From assembly GCA_002868925.1 (NCBI GenBank), contig PKTZ01000147.1, positions 1-35,030 of the forward strand: DNA of 35,030 bases. The letters run 5' to 3'. The notes beneath the pieces are model-generated. The model saw nothing but the letters and a program-made list of their open reading frames with translations. It was not told the origin of the DNA and searched no databases. This document shows, in pieces, positions 15,393 to 19,746 of this stretch. The stretch's first letter is position 1. The number at the start of each line of letters is the position of its first letter. This DNA comes from Desulfuromonas sp. GTDB lineage: Bacteria > Desulfobacterota > Desulfuromonadia > Desulfuromonadales > UBA2294. The position numbers and the translations under genes were made by a program.

Positions 15393-15653
15393 ATGGCCAG
15401 AGAAATCAAAGATACTTTTCGTTTGAGAGAGAGCTGGATACTCTGCTTTATTCTCGGCATTGTTATGCTCAACTATCCATTTCTCCACATCTTCAACAAG
15501 GCGTCGACTTTTCTTGGTATTCCCATACTTATCCTCTACTTCTTCATCGGCTGGCCGATTTCAATTTTCATCATCTACCTTTTCGCACGGGTTCTCGATG
15601 CCTCGCCCGGATCTGAGAAAAATGAAAATTCTGAAAAGCGGGATGAGCCATGA
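15393..15653 (+). CDS. Small two-helix membrane protein, putative partner of the SLC5-type sensor
   Basis: The 86-residue protein has two hydrophobic helices (about residues 15-33 and 41-65) around a short NKASTFLGIP loop, and a charged hydrophilic tail. Its ATG follows a weak GGAT site. Its TGA overlaps the ATG of the next gene in an ATGA junction, so the two are translated together. The size and position recall the small subunits found beside some sodium/solute symporters (DUF4212-type), but the sequence does not show that family's full pattern. A structural or regulatory partner of the downstream transporter domain is inferred. Confidence 0.8.
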   Translation: MAREIKDTFRLRESWILCFILGIVMLNYPFLHIFNKASTFLGIPILILYFFIGWPISIFIIYLFARVLDASPGSEKNENSEKRDEP

Positions 15654-18600
15654 TATCGGTCACGTCGGTTGCCATCATAACGCTCATCTATTTCGGTTTT
15701 CTTTTCGCCGTCGCTTATTATGCTGACCGGAAACGGGAACAGGGTCGGAGTATTATTTCCAACTCCTACATCTATTCCCTCTCCCTTGCCGTCTACCTGT
15801 CGTCGTGGACGTTTTACGGTAGCGTCGGTCGTGCCGCCACCAGCGGCCTCGACTTTCTGCCGACCTATCTCGGGCCGACCCTGATCGCCTTCACCTGGTG
15901 GTTTTTGCTGCGCAAGATCATCATGGTCTGCAAAGAGCAGAACATCGTCGGCATCGCCGACTTCATCTCGAGCCGATACGGAAAATCCCAGGTACTCGGC
16001 AGTGTGGTCACAGTCTTTGCGGTGATCGGCATCATGCCCTACATTGCGCTTCAGTTAAAGGCGGTTGCTCATACCTTTGACCACCTCGCGACAAACCCGG
16101 AGGCGTTGACACACAGTATCGGTCGGATACTGCCCGGATTCCCGATGACCATCGACACCGGTTTCATCGTTGCCTTTATGCTCGGTATATTCGGCGTCCT
16201 GTTCGGAGCCCGCCACCTCGACGCCTCAGAGCGCCATGAAGGACTAGTCGCAGCTGTCGCCTTTGAGTCACTGGTTAAGCTCGTCGCCTTCGTAACGGTC
16301 GGAATTTTCGTCACCTACGGCCTTTTCGACGGGTTCACTGATATTTTCAACCAATTCAATGAACAGTTTCCGGACCGGGCTCACCTGCTCTACCTGGCAC
16401 CGGAGAATATCCCCTACTCGCGCTGGTTCACCTTAACCTTCATCGCCATGATGGCGTTCATGTTCCTTCCACGCCAGTTCCACATCCTGGTTATCGAAAA
16501 CTCCAATATAGAACATATTAAAAAGGCGATGTGGCGTTTTCCGGCCTACATGTTCCTGATCAACCTGTTCGTTATCCCGATCGCACTCGGCGGACTGATC
16601 CTGGCCAACGGCGACACCACCAACGCCGATTACTTCGTCATCGACCTGCCGCTCCAGACAGGGCACCCGGGTTTGGCGATGCTGGTCTTTATCGGTGGTT
16701 TTTCGGCCTCGGCCGGCATGGTCATGGTCTCCTCCGTCGCCCTGGCAACGATGATCCTCAATCATATCATCATGCCTATCATCCTTAGACTGGGGCTGGC
16801 GCAGAAAAACATCTATCACACCCTGATCAATATCAAGCGACTCGCTATCATGGGAGTCATCTTCCTCGGCTACGGCTACTACCGGATCATCGGCGAATCG
16901 TACGCGCTGGTCAACATCGGGCTGATTTCGTTCATTGCCGCAACCCAGTTCGCTCCGCCTCTGATAGGCGGTCTCTACTGGCGCCGGGCCACGCGACGCG
17001 GGGCGATCCTCGGCCTGACCCTCGGCTTCTTCACCTGGTTTTACACCCTGCTCATCCCCTCCTTCGTTCGTTCCGGTTGGCTCGAAAGCAATATTCTCGA
17101 AGAGGGACTTTTCGGTATCGCCGCCCTGCGTCCGCTCGAACTTTTCGGCATGTCCGGATTCGACATCTGGACCCACTCCCTGTTCTGGACCATGTTTTTC
17201 AATATCGGGTCTTTTTTGACCCTCTCCCTGCTGACCAAACCAAACCGACTTGAAAGGGAGCAGGCGGTCAAATTTATCGACAGCCCGGAAGCCCGCCCGA
17301 TCTTCATAACGCGTGAGCGGATCGACAAGGCGCCGACCGTCGTCGAGTTTGTCGAGTTGATGGCGAAATTTATCGGTAACAAACAGGCGCACCTGGCGAT
17401 CTCGGAGTACCTTGGCGACCGTGAAATCGACCACAAGGGGAGCGTCTCGGAATACGAACTTCCAAAATTAAAACGTTTCACCGAAAGGACCCTCGCCGGC
17501 TCGGTCGGGGCAGCCCCGGCCAAGATCATCATCGAGAATTACCTCGAAACTCGCGGCAGCACCATGGAAGAGGTCTTCGATATTTTCGGCACGGTCACCC
17601 TGAGCCGCACAGCCAGCCGCGAACAGTTGGGAGTCCTTTACGAGGCCGCCAGGATCGTTGCCAGCGGGAAGAACCTGGACAACATACTTGACAGCATCCT
17701 CTCTCTGCTCAGGGAACAGTTCAAATTCGACCTCTGCGTCATCCGGATCCTCGATCCCGACACCATGACTCTCTCCGTCAAAAGTCAGCAGGGGATGTCA
17801 TCACTGCACCTCGGGAAATCGGAAAGAACCATCGACATGGAGACCTGTATCGGAGAGGCTTTTTTGACCAACAGGGAGGTTATCGTCAACGACACGGCGA
17901 CCATGGACAAACCGATTTCAGCTGAAATCGCCAAACGTGAAGGGATCGTCGCCCTTGCCCACGCCCCGATCACCATTGAAGGGGAACCTATCGGTGTCCT
18001 CTCCGCTTTCTCACGCGCCTCGAAGGGGATCTTTACCAAGGAGTTTGTCGAGCTTCTTCACAACCTTGCCGGGCAGATCGGCGTCGCATGGCGGAATTCC
18101 GAGCAAACCCACAAACTGATCGAAGCGCGGGAGAACGAGCGCGAACTGATGATCGCCAAGAGGATCCAACTCAGCCTCCTCCCCTCCGCGTTCCCGGAGA
18201 TCGAAGGATTCGATATTTCCGGGCTCTGCGTTCCGGCACGCCAGGTCGGCGGAGATTATTTCGACATCCTCGCGCAAAACGAAACCTCCCTCGATGCCGT
18301 TATCGCCGATGTTTCGGGGCATAATATCGGCGCGGCGCTGATCATGGCAGAAACCCGGACCCTGATCAGGGGAGGTCACGAAAAATTCGATTCACCAGCA
18401 GAATTGATGCACAGTCTCAATGAGTTCTTCTACGATGACCTGACGCGCACTGAACTCTTCATTTCGATGTTCTACCTGCGCATCGATCTCGAGACGAAAA
18501 CCGTCCACTATGCCAACGCGGGGCACAACTTGCCGCTACTTTACCGGGACAATGAAGGTAAGATCGAAACCCTCGACGCCGACGGACTCATTCTCGGCGT

Positions 18601-18868
18601 CAAAAAGGGGATTTCTTTCGCGGAAGAAAAGACAACCCTGCATCCAAACGATATCCTTGTTCTTTACACAGACGGCATTACCGAAGCGGAAAGGTCCGAC
18701 GGCGAGTTCTTCGGAGAGGAGAGGCTCAAGGATATTATTTTCGAAGCGAAAAGAATGAGCGCCCAGGAAATTATCGACCATGTCCTCGAGCAGGTCCGTA
18801 TTTTCACCGGCAGTCACAATTTTAACGACGATATTTCGATGGTGGTGTTAAAATCGAACCGCCCTTAA
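15650..18868 (+). CDS. SLC5 symporter-STAC-GAF-PP2C (SpoIIE-type) fusion: transporter-linked phosphatase
   Basis: The 1072-residue protein joins a membrane carrier to a signalling enzyme. Residues 1-530 are a complete sodium:solute symporter (SLC5) domain with about 13 helices, including the start YADRKREQGRSIISN, TFYGSVGRAATSGLDFLPTYLGPT and a serine pair (S361-S362) where Na+ coordinating residues usually lie. Residues 565-640 match the STAC linker (RFTERTLAGSVGAAPAKIII), known between SLC5 domains and kinases such as CbrA. Residues 660-815 form a GAF domain. Residues 855-1070 are a PP2C/SpoIIE phosphatase with all metal Asp motifs: GGDYFD (Asp869), ADVSGH (Asp887), YTDGITEA (Asp1008) and NDDIS (1059-1063). 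It should dephosphorylate the STAS protein encoded next. Whether the carrier part transports or only senses a solute is unknown. Confidence 0.92.
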   Translation: MISVTSVAIITLIYFGFLFAVAYYADRKREQGRSIISNSYIYSLSLAVYLSSWTFYGSVGRAATSGLDFLPTYLGPTLIAFTWWFLLRKIIMVCKEQNIVGIADFISSRYGKSQVLGSVVTVFAVIGIMPYIALQLKAVAHTFDHLATNPEALTHSIGRILPGFPMTIDTGFIVAFMLGIFGVLFGARHLDASERHEGLVAAVAFESLVKLVAFVTVGIFVTYGLFDGFTDIFNQFNEQFPDRAHLLYLAPENIPYSRWFTLTFIAMMAFMFLPRQFHILVIENSNIEHIKKAMWRFPAYMFLINLFVIPIALGGLILANGDTTNADYFVIDLPLQTGHPGLAMLVFIGGFSASAGMVMVSSVALATMILNHIIMPIILRLGLAQKNIYHTLINIKRLAIMGVIFLGYGYYRIIGESYALVNIGLISFIAATQFAPPLIGGLYWRRATRRGAILGLTLGFFTWFYTLLIPSFVRSGWLESNILEEGLFGIAALRPLELFGMSGFDIWTHSLFWTMFFNIGSFLTLSLLTKPNRLEREQAVKFIDSPEARPIFITRERIDKAPTVVEFVELMAKFIGNKQAHLAISEYLGDREIDHKGSVSEYELPKLKRFTERTLAGSVGAAPAKIIIENYLETRGSTMEEVFDIFGTVTLSRTASREQLGVLYEAARIVASGKNLDNILDSILSLLREQFKFDLCVIRILDPDTMTLSVKSQQGMSSLHLGKSERTIDMETCIGEAFLTNREVIVNDTATMDKPISAEIAKREGIVALAHAPITIEGEPIGVLSAFSRASKGIFTKEFVELLHNLAGQIGVAWRNSEQTHKLIEARENERELMIAKRIQLSLLPSAFPEIEGFDISGLCVPARQVGGDYFDILAQNETSLDAVIADVSGHNIGAALIMAETRTLIRGGHEKFDSPAELMHSLNEFFYDDLTRTELFISMFYLRIDLETKTVHYANAGHNLPLLYRDNEGKIETLDADGLILGVKKGISFAEEKTTLHPNDILVLYTDGITEAERSDGEFFGEERLKDIIFEAKRMSAQEIIDHVLEQVRIFTGSHNFNDDISMVVLKSNRP

Positions 18869-18946
18869 CAGCTATTTCAGCATGAACGAACGATGCGCAT
18901 ATGATATTCTAAACAGAATTGAGTTAGATAAACAGGAGGCAAAAAT

Positions 18947-19282
18947 ATGAACATCAATATTGAGGAAAAAGCAGCGACGGTCCTGATTGAGATCAAAGAG
19001 GAACGTCTCGACGCACACAACAGCAGCGAGCTGAAAACCCAGATTCTCGCCCTGTTCGATGAAGGGAAGAATAATCTCGTAATCGATCTGCAGGATGTCC
19101 GGTTCGTCGATTCCTCCGGACTCGGTTCACTGGTTTCAGGTTTTAAAAATGCCAGCGCCCGCAACGGCAACCTGAAGCTGTGCGGTCTACAGCCCCAGGT
19201 CAAGTCGATGTTCGACCTGACCCGCCTGCACAGGGTTTTCGAAATATTCCCCGGAGCCGAAGAAGCGCTCGCCAGCTTTTAG
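18947..19282 (+). CDS. STAS-domain anti-anti-sigma factor (SpoIIAA/RsbV-like)
   Basis: The 111-residue cytoplasmic protein is a single STAS domain. The phosphorylation loop DSSGLGS is at residues 55-61, so Ser57 (or Ser56) would be phosphorylated by the HATPase kinase encoded next and dephosphorylated by the PP2C domain of the upstream gene. AGGAGG stands 7 bases before the ATG, the strongest ribosome site in the cluster. A 78-base gap follows the phosphatase gene. In the known partner switch the unphosphorylated STAS protein binds the kinase/anti-sigma protein and frees its target. No sigma factor gene is in the window, so the target is open. Confidence 0.93.
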   Translation: MNINIEEKAATVLIEIKEERLDAHNSSELKTQILALFDEGKNNLVIDLQDVRFVDSSGLGSLVSGFKNASARNGNLKLCGLQPQVKSMFDLTRLHRVFEIFPGAEEALASF

Positions 19283-19326
19283 GGAACCGGCGGTCAAAGA
19301 TGAGTTAACATCAACCGGCCAATTAA

Positions 19327-19746
19327 ATGGACAATGTCGAAATTGACATAAAAGTACCAAACCAGACCCGCTATCTCAGCCTGATCGGCAAGATCGGCGA
19401 GGATGTGGCGCGCACCCTCAAGCGCTACCGGGGTGATCGGGAGGAGCTTGCCTACCAGATCAACCTGGTCCTGACCGAGGCGACCTCGAACGCCATCCTG
19501 CACGCCTCGGACGACGCCGCAGACCGGACGATCCATATCAACATTGCGGTTATCAACCGCAACCTGCACATCAGGGTATTTGACCAGGGACAGGGATTTG
19601 ATCCCGAAGCATTACCAAACCAGGATTTTCAGGAGCCGGGAGAAAGCGGCAGGGGAGTCTATATAATACGGTCAATCATGGACAAGGTCAACTTCTCGCG
19701 GGTCGACGGCGGGCATGTCCTGGAAATGATCAAATTCCTCCATTAA
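19327..19746 (+). CDS. HATPase anti-sigma/serine kinase (RsbW/SpoIIAB-like)
   Basis: The 139-residue protein has the GHKL ATP-binding fold of anti-sigma serine kinases. The N box reads LVLTEATSNAILHA with Glu51 and Asn55, the G1 box is DQGQGFD (Asp86), and the G2 part is GRGVYIIRSIMDKV (108-121). Length is normal for the family. It lies 44 bases after the STAS gene, completing phosphatase, substrate and kinase in one cluster. It would phosphorylate the STAS serine and sequester another partner when free. It is convergent with the HAD gene, with 23 bases between and no terminator seen. Confidence 0.92.
   Translation: MDNVEIDIKVPNQTRYLSLIGKIGEDVARTLKRYRGDREELAYQINLVLTEATSNAILHASDDAADRTIHINIAVINRNLHIRVFDQGQGFDPEALPNQDFQEPGESGRGVYIIRSIMDKVNFSRVDGGHVLEMIKFLH

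Follow-up and report, generated by a model that had tools for sequence, protein, structure and literature searches.

What does a transporter-like sensor control when it is joined to a serine phosphatase, where a histidine kinase is usual? The question is raised by a four-gene unit of Desulfuromonas sp., found on contig PKTZ01000147.1 (assembly GCA_002868925.1), one contig of a 2.57 Mb genome that is 88% complete. The window, as the term is used below, is the whole analysed stretch of 35,030 nucleotides. The unit encodes a small membrane hairpin protein, a fusion of SLC5 transporter-like, STAC, GAF and PP2C domains, a STAS protein resembling anti-sigma-factor antagonists, and a GHKL serine kinase, here called the HATPase. 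We propose that the locus probably encodes a partner switch in which a membrane transceptor serves as the phosphatase, with the sigma factor RpoS as the leading candidate target. The window's proteins were searched with Pfam and for profile matches in the PDB, and AlphaFold models were used.

Architecture of the four-gene unit

The four open reading frames were recovered on the plus strand at exactly the positions of the original prediction (Table 1), and the domain order that it had read into the fusion was borne out. Residues 3-635 matched the cryo-EM entry for the SLC5-STAC part of CbrA (10ed_A) with an E value of 1e-73 and 32% identity over 588 positions. Pfam recognised the transporter part weakly (SSF, 1e-6), the GAF domain at 5e-17 and SpoIIE/PP2C at 7e-52; STAC was not recovered among the Pfam matches of the fusion. 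When the STAC segment alone was compared with CbrA the score was 20.7 bits, the maximum in 1000 shuffles being 5.8. The AlphaFold model of the fusion, with a mean predicted local distance difference test score (pLDDT) of 81, was all-helical across the SLC5-STAC part, with a four-helix STAC bundle predicted at 564-634, and the SLC5 fold gave VIA Z values of 24-33 to SLC5 structures including CHT1, SGLT and NIS. With an SLC5 domain homologous to that of CbrA and a STAC domain behind it, the front is like those of the transceptors CbrA, CrbS and RpuS. Further along the model, the GAF domain matched 2QYB and the phosphatase domain matched the PP2C domains of RssB, SiaA, SpoIIE and Rv1364c. By Pfam and by structure match, a C-terminal DHp/CA histidine kinase was absent from the fusion and SpoIIE/PP2C stood there instead, so that the predicted serine phosphatase output held. 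The metal-binding Asp residues, all of which had been predicted to be present, were invariant in 35 homologues.

The STAS and GHKL kinase partners predicted in the same operon were likewise confirmed, by Pfam (STAS, 3e-21; HATPase_c_2, 1e-22) and by intact motifs. In profile searches the STAS protein matched SpoIIAA/RsbV-type structures and the HATPase matched RsbW/SpoIIAB; the phosphorylatable Ser of the STAS protein and the N-box and G boxes of the HATPase were each invariant in 20 homologues. Only one Pfam STAS protein was found in this genome and only one RsbW-like HATPase, the other matches to the latter family being weak and in large proteins. The unit is thus like RsbU-RsbV-RsbW and SpoIIE-SpoIIAA-SpoIIAB in its PP2C domain, its STAS protein with a DSSG serine and its GHKL serine kinase with intact motifs, but the phosphatase here has an SLC5-STAC front and there is no sigma factor in the operon. 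The genome has two SpoIIE proteins, the fusion and a second of ~400 aa. A ~400-aa SpoIIE protein (L125:3210-4400 and relatives, L119-L128) occurs in most genomes of the order with no fixed neighbours and is likely a second phosphatase of the same switch; its N-terminal part was not recognised by Pfam.

Among the pocket residues of CbrA named in PMC13022988, Y51, S53, W55, F71, Y75 and F406 have identical counterparts in the window protein, and two positions are changed (A56 to Thr54, F248 to Ala266). At K210, the counterpart of the Na2-site lysine (K196 of CbrA), 34 of the 35 homologues have lysine; if the SLC5 carrier works as CbrA does, it would be proton- and not sodium-coupled. The SLC5-STAC part is nearer to a Paracoccus kinase (44% identity), a Sinorhizobium protein (40%) and a CrbS-like protein (38%) than to CbrA (31-32%), and therefore histidine is not to be assumed as the ligand. 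The gene for the Sinorhizobium protein adjoins another SSS (sodium/solute symporter) gene. In comparison with the Pseudomonas CbrXA/CbrB system, then, the unit has a homologous SLC5-STAC front and a small two-helix protein encoded upstream by an overlapping gene, but its output is GAF plus PP2C with no response regulator, whereas that of CbrA is a PAS-histidine kinase.

The small gene and the fusion gene overlap by 4 nt in a common ATGA, and the AlphaFold model of the small protein is a helical hairpin (helices 3-35 and 39-70), in agreement with the two-helix, translationally coupled protein of the original prediction. The small gene is kept upstream of PP2C fusions and in most cases overlaps them by the same 4 nt, and related small proteins are encoded upstream of SLC5-STAC kinases and of an SLC5-STAC-GGDEF-EAL protein. 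The small proteins upstream of SLC5-STAC genes in Azoarcus and Paracoccus scored 54 and 39 bits. In Pseudomonas, CbrX is a small two-helix peptide whose gene lies just upstream of cbrA and overlaps it, and which binds the CbrA SLC5 domain in the structure (PMC13022988). CbrX was not found by a PDB profile search with the small proteins or by phmmer with the Azoarcus homologue, and an Amphritea CbrX orthologue scored no better than shuffles against the window's small protein. Since it is like CbrX in position and topology but homology in sequence to a genuine CbrX orthologue could not be detected, we call the protein CbrX-like. The Azoarcus sp. KH32C gene, on plasmid pAZKH (L131:3781-7177), has SLC5-STAC joined to GGDEF-EAL, another output for the same front module, with the related two-helix protein upstream; GGDEF outputs of STAC have been noted before (PMC5715377).

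Table 1. Positions of the genes and domains of the unit in the window
Feature	Positions	Strand	Remarks
Small membrane hairpin gene	15393..15653	+	86 aa; CbrX-like in position and topology
Fusion gene SLC5-STAC-GAF-coiled coil-PP2C	15650..18868	+	1072 aa
SLC5 transporter-like domain	15650..17239	+	residues ~1-530; CbrA 10ed_A match; fold matches
K210 codon	16277..16279	+	aligned with CbrA K196, which occupies the Na2 site
STAC domain	17315..17569	+	residues 556-640; four predicted helices
GAF domain	17669..18088	+	residues 674-813; relative of 2QYB
Long helix, predicted coiled-coil linker from GAF to PP2C	18038..18178	+	residues 797-843; swap point near residue 838
PP2C/SpoIIE serine phosphatase domain	18200..18859	+	invariant D869, D887, D1008, D1060/D1061
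STAS anti-sigma-antagonist-like gene	18947..19282	+	111 aa; S56/S57 in DSSG
RsbW/SpoIIAB-like GHKL serine kinase gene	19327..19746	+	139 aa; N-box E51/N55, G boxes intact

Distribution and origin of the phosphatase form

When genomes were searched for the fusion and its neighbours tallied, as the original prediction had suggested, the order CbrX-like gene, fusion, STAS, HATPase was found in nearly all orthologous loci, with fusion identities of 41-77%, and was conserved across the window's order and class (Desulfuromonas/Geobacter relatives). In its domains, residues and synteny the four-gene unit is beyond chance. The fusion or large parts of it were matched in 53 of the 58 genomes searched of the order; the five genomes without it all belong to one family. 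There the STAS and HATPase genes still lie between a TPR gene and a HAD or Lgt gene (5/5 genomes), and because they are kept in place where the fusion was lost, the STAS protein and the kinase form the core of the unit. In the window the bordering genes are on the minus strand, TPR upstream and HAD phosphatase and Lgt downstream (names read from sequence). In many relatives, a conserved protein of ~520-590 aa that is missing from the window is encoded between the TPR gene and the switch (L004:4188-5738, also L069, L070, L072, L075, L079 and L156); it has an AAA_33 ATPase part and a weak APH match. In one orthologous fusion, from a single-contig genome (L023, G021:C1:2788806-2792009), an in-frame TAG falls within the GAF region, close to codon 689.

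Among 395 genomes sampled from the phylum, only those of the window's order and class yielded the full-length PP2C form. The same SLC5-STAC-GAF protein occurs in other lineages of this phylum (L055-L068) up to residue ~838, at 45-50% identity and often with a CbrX-like small gene upstream, but there it continues as HisKA-HATPase, a histidine kinase output, and in the loci read genes related to the STAS and HATPase genes of the window were not found. In a tree of the SLC5-STAC part all 28 PP2C proteins fell on one side of a branch with a support of 93 (SH-aLRT, the Shimodaira-Hasegawa-like approximate likelihood ratio test), adjoining the phylum's kinase forms; this was a quick tree with a long CbrA branch, and its support is moderate. 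Because the tree sets the PP2C forms on one branch beside the kinase forms, a single output swap is suggested: the kinase was probably replaced once by PP2C at the coiled coil, turning a two-component receptor into a partner-switch receptor. On this view an SLC5-STAC-GAF kinase would have exchanged its histidine kinase for PP2C to give the unit, and with moderate confidence the swap, and a single PP2C origin, may be placed in an ancestor of the Desulfuromonas/Geobacter class. It has been proposed that GAF-type sensors are exchanged as modules between kinases and PPM phosphatases via coiled-coil linkers (PMC12143880).

The original prediction had put the system forward as its best candidate for an undescribed nutrient- or ion-sensing system. 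Searches of the open-access literature brought up no description of the four-gene unit or the output swap, and no papers on SLC5-phosphatase fusions or on partner switching in Geobacter. Its parts do have precedents, CbrX among them. Actinobacteria have SSS-GAF-PP2C-HATPase proteins, alike in joining a sodium/solute symporter domain to GAF and PP2C; compared by their description (PMC7918813), they differ in that the ATPase is fused in, and STAC, a STAS partner and a small protein were not reported. 2QYB comes from a putative membrane protein of Geobacter sulfurreducens, of which it is the GAF region, and is 61-63% identical to the GAF domains of fusions from related families of the class and ~42% to that of the window, but only the GAF fragment was solved, and the PDB title assigns no function.

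Several genomes have extra fusion copies that lack their own STAS and HATPase genes (L003, L005/L078, L077, L074, L076 and L006), with neighbours that include TRAP transporters, AOR-like oxidoreductases, an FAD-linked oxidase, universal stress proteins and type I secretion (names read from sequence). It follows from these copies that one STAS-HATPase pair may be served by several sensors. In unrelated bacteria (L132, L088 and L076), SLC5-STAC was seen near genes for a CBS-DUF294 nucleotidyltransferase and/or an exonuclease-domain protein.

Proposed mechanism and target of the kinase

From the conserved parts we infer the following biochemical steps. A solute bound or moved by SLC5 and/or a cytosolic ligand of GAF would alter the SLC5-STAC-GAF part, with the small hairpin protein perhaps packed on SLC5 as CbrX is on CbrA. 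The change would travel along the GAF-PP2C coiled coil, setting the dimer state and activity of PP2C, and there is a coiled-coil mechanism for PPM phosphatases, GAF-linked ones included (PMC12143880). The HATPase would phosphorylate Ser56/57 of the STAS protein and the PP2C domain would take the phosphate off; unphosphorylated STAS would then capture the HATPase, which would let its target go. The candidate target so set free would be RpoS, encoded elsewhere in the genome. Several points weigh against this scheme, some against its target and others against its input, and these are taken up with the alternatives below.

The statement of the original prediction that no sigma factor is encoded nearby was correct for the window operon and for the neighbour loci read. 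The accompanying suggestion that the kinase may control something else fails as an inference, because the genome has RpoS and RpoH, on contigs other than the window, and Gram-negative partner switches can act on RpoS, as they do in Pseudomonas and Shewanella (PMC6482189). The sigma-70 factors of the genome are three, RpoD, an RpoS-like protein and RpoH, and the RpoS-like gene adjoins an NlpD-like gene. A sigma-70 promoter scan upstream gave nothing clearly above shuffles. Phylum-wide RpoS presence was dropped as a test of the target; it is uninformative, since with the NCBIfam RpoS model nearly every genome gives scores for RpoD-like sigmas and no score passes the cut-off. RpoS is the leading candidate for the target of the HATPase, a possibility that we hold tentatively.

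The chances are about even that the partner switch is real and that its HATPase acts on something other than RpoS, either a different sigma factor, RpoH for instance, or a protein that is no sigma factor, for example a diguanylate cyclase or other regulator; SiaC-SiaD is a Gram-negative partner switch of the latter kind. Genome G300, which is 100% complete, retains the whole module without RpoS, and therefore RpoS is not an obligate target. Further, no target gene was found beside the switch in the orthologous loci read, beside the ~400-aa PP2C, or beside distant HATPase homologues in the phylum, and HsbA-FlgM offers another Gram-negative switch with a non-sigma target (PMC6482189). RpoS-like proteins, on the other hand, are present in ~52 of 56 genomes of the order, among them every genome that lost the fusion, although this co-occurrence is weak evidence either way because such sigmas are widespread. 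Also on the side of RpoS, G300 and G055 (83% complete), neither of which has an RpoS match, have an unusually diverged HATPase: its identity to the nearest relatives is 50-56% for G300 and 43% for G055, compared with 64-71% for RpoS-bearing pairs of the class with similar RpoD identity, so that it is more diverged than RpoD distances predict. This divergence would fit a lost or changed partner, but two cases do not settle the matter. A third genome without an RpoS match, G002, has a normal HATPase, and its assembly is very fragmented. The fusion proteins of G300 (L057/L082) and G055 (L156/L159) are also unusually diverged, and in G055 the fusion is on a separate contig from the STAS-HATPase pair.

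Signal input and significance

A sizeable possibility, somewhat short of even, is that GAF reads a cytosolic signal and that SLC5-STAC does not drive the phosphatase, serving as a membrane anchor or as a carrier in its own right. In chimeras and deletions of CbrA and CrbS, kinase activation did not depend on SLC5 transport; the SLC5 domains could be exchanged and STAC deleted with no obvious loss of signalling (PMC5715377), and the "transporter-driven" of the original prediction was to that extent overstated. A review has argued that CbrA probably senses a signal inside the cell, for which PAS is the likely candidate (PMC7918813), and in the window protein GAF holds the PAS position, joined directly to PP2C via the coiled coil. 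The same review reports that STAC deletion in P. putida lowered expression of a CbrA target. On the other side, conservation of the SLC5 pocket residues and of the Na2-site lysine, and the retention of SLC5-STAC when the output was swapped, together suggest that the front is functionally important. As to the small protein, removal of CbrX was without effect on growth on histidine (PMC13022988). The survival of the switch in the family without the fusion means that the transceptor is not indispensable. That the fusion is just one of several interchangeable inputs, with the soluble ~400-aa PP2C as the main STAS phosphatase, seems unlikely: a ~400-aa SpoIIE is found in this genome and in most relatives, including those without the fusion, and there are paralogous fusions near other gene sets, but the fusion adjoins the STAS-HATPase pair over the whole class.

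If the phosphatase is a transceptor, the fullest account would be that a CbrA-type nutrient transceptor was rewired once, from kinase to PP2C at the GAF coiled coil, to feed a partner switch that is found throughout the class and controls RpoS; we consider this possible and rather doubtful. Were it true, the general stress and stationary-phase programme of Desulfuromonas/Geobacter-type bacteria would be set directly by a transporter-like solute sensor. The unit is also a naturally occurring example of the exchange of modules between histidine kinases and PPM phosphatases put forward on structural grounds (PMC12143880), in that one SLC5-STAC-GAF-helix front drives a kinase in one lineage and, in the sister lineage, a phosphatase. 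A phosphatase-STAS readout is of another kind than that of a kinase, and the unit therefore offers a way to ask if SLC5-STAC transceptors signal by transport. In sum, the module, which the class carries almost universally, is a candidate for a missing control layer in Geobacter-type bacteria.

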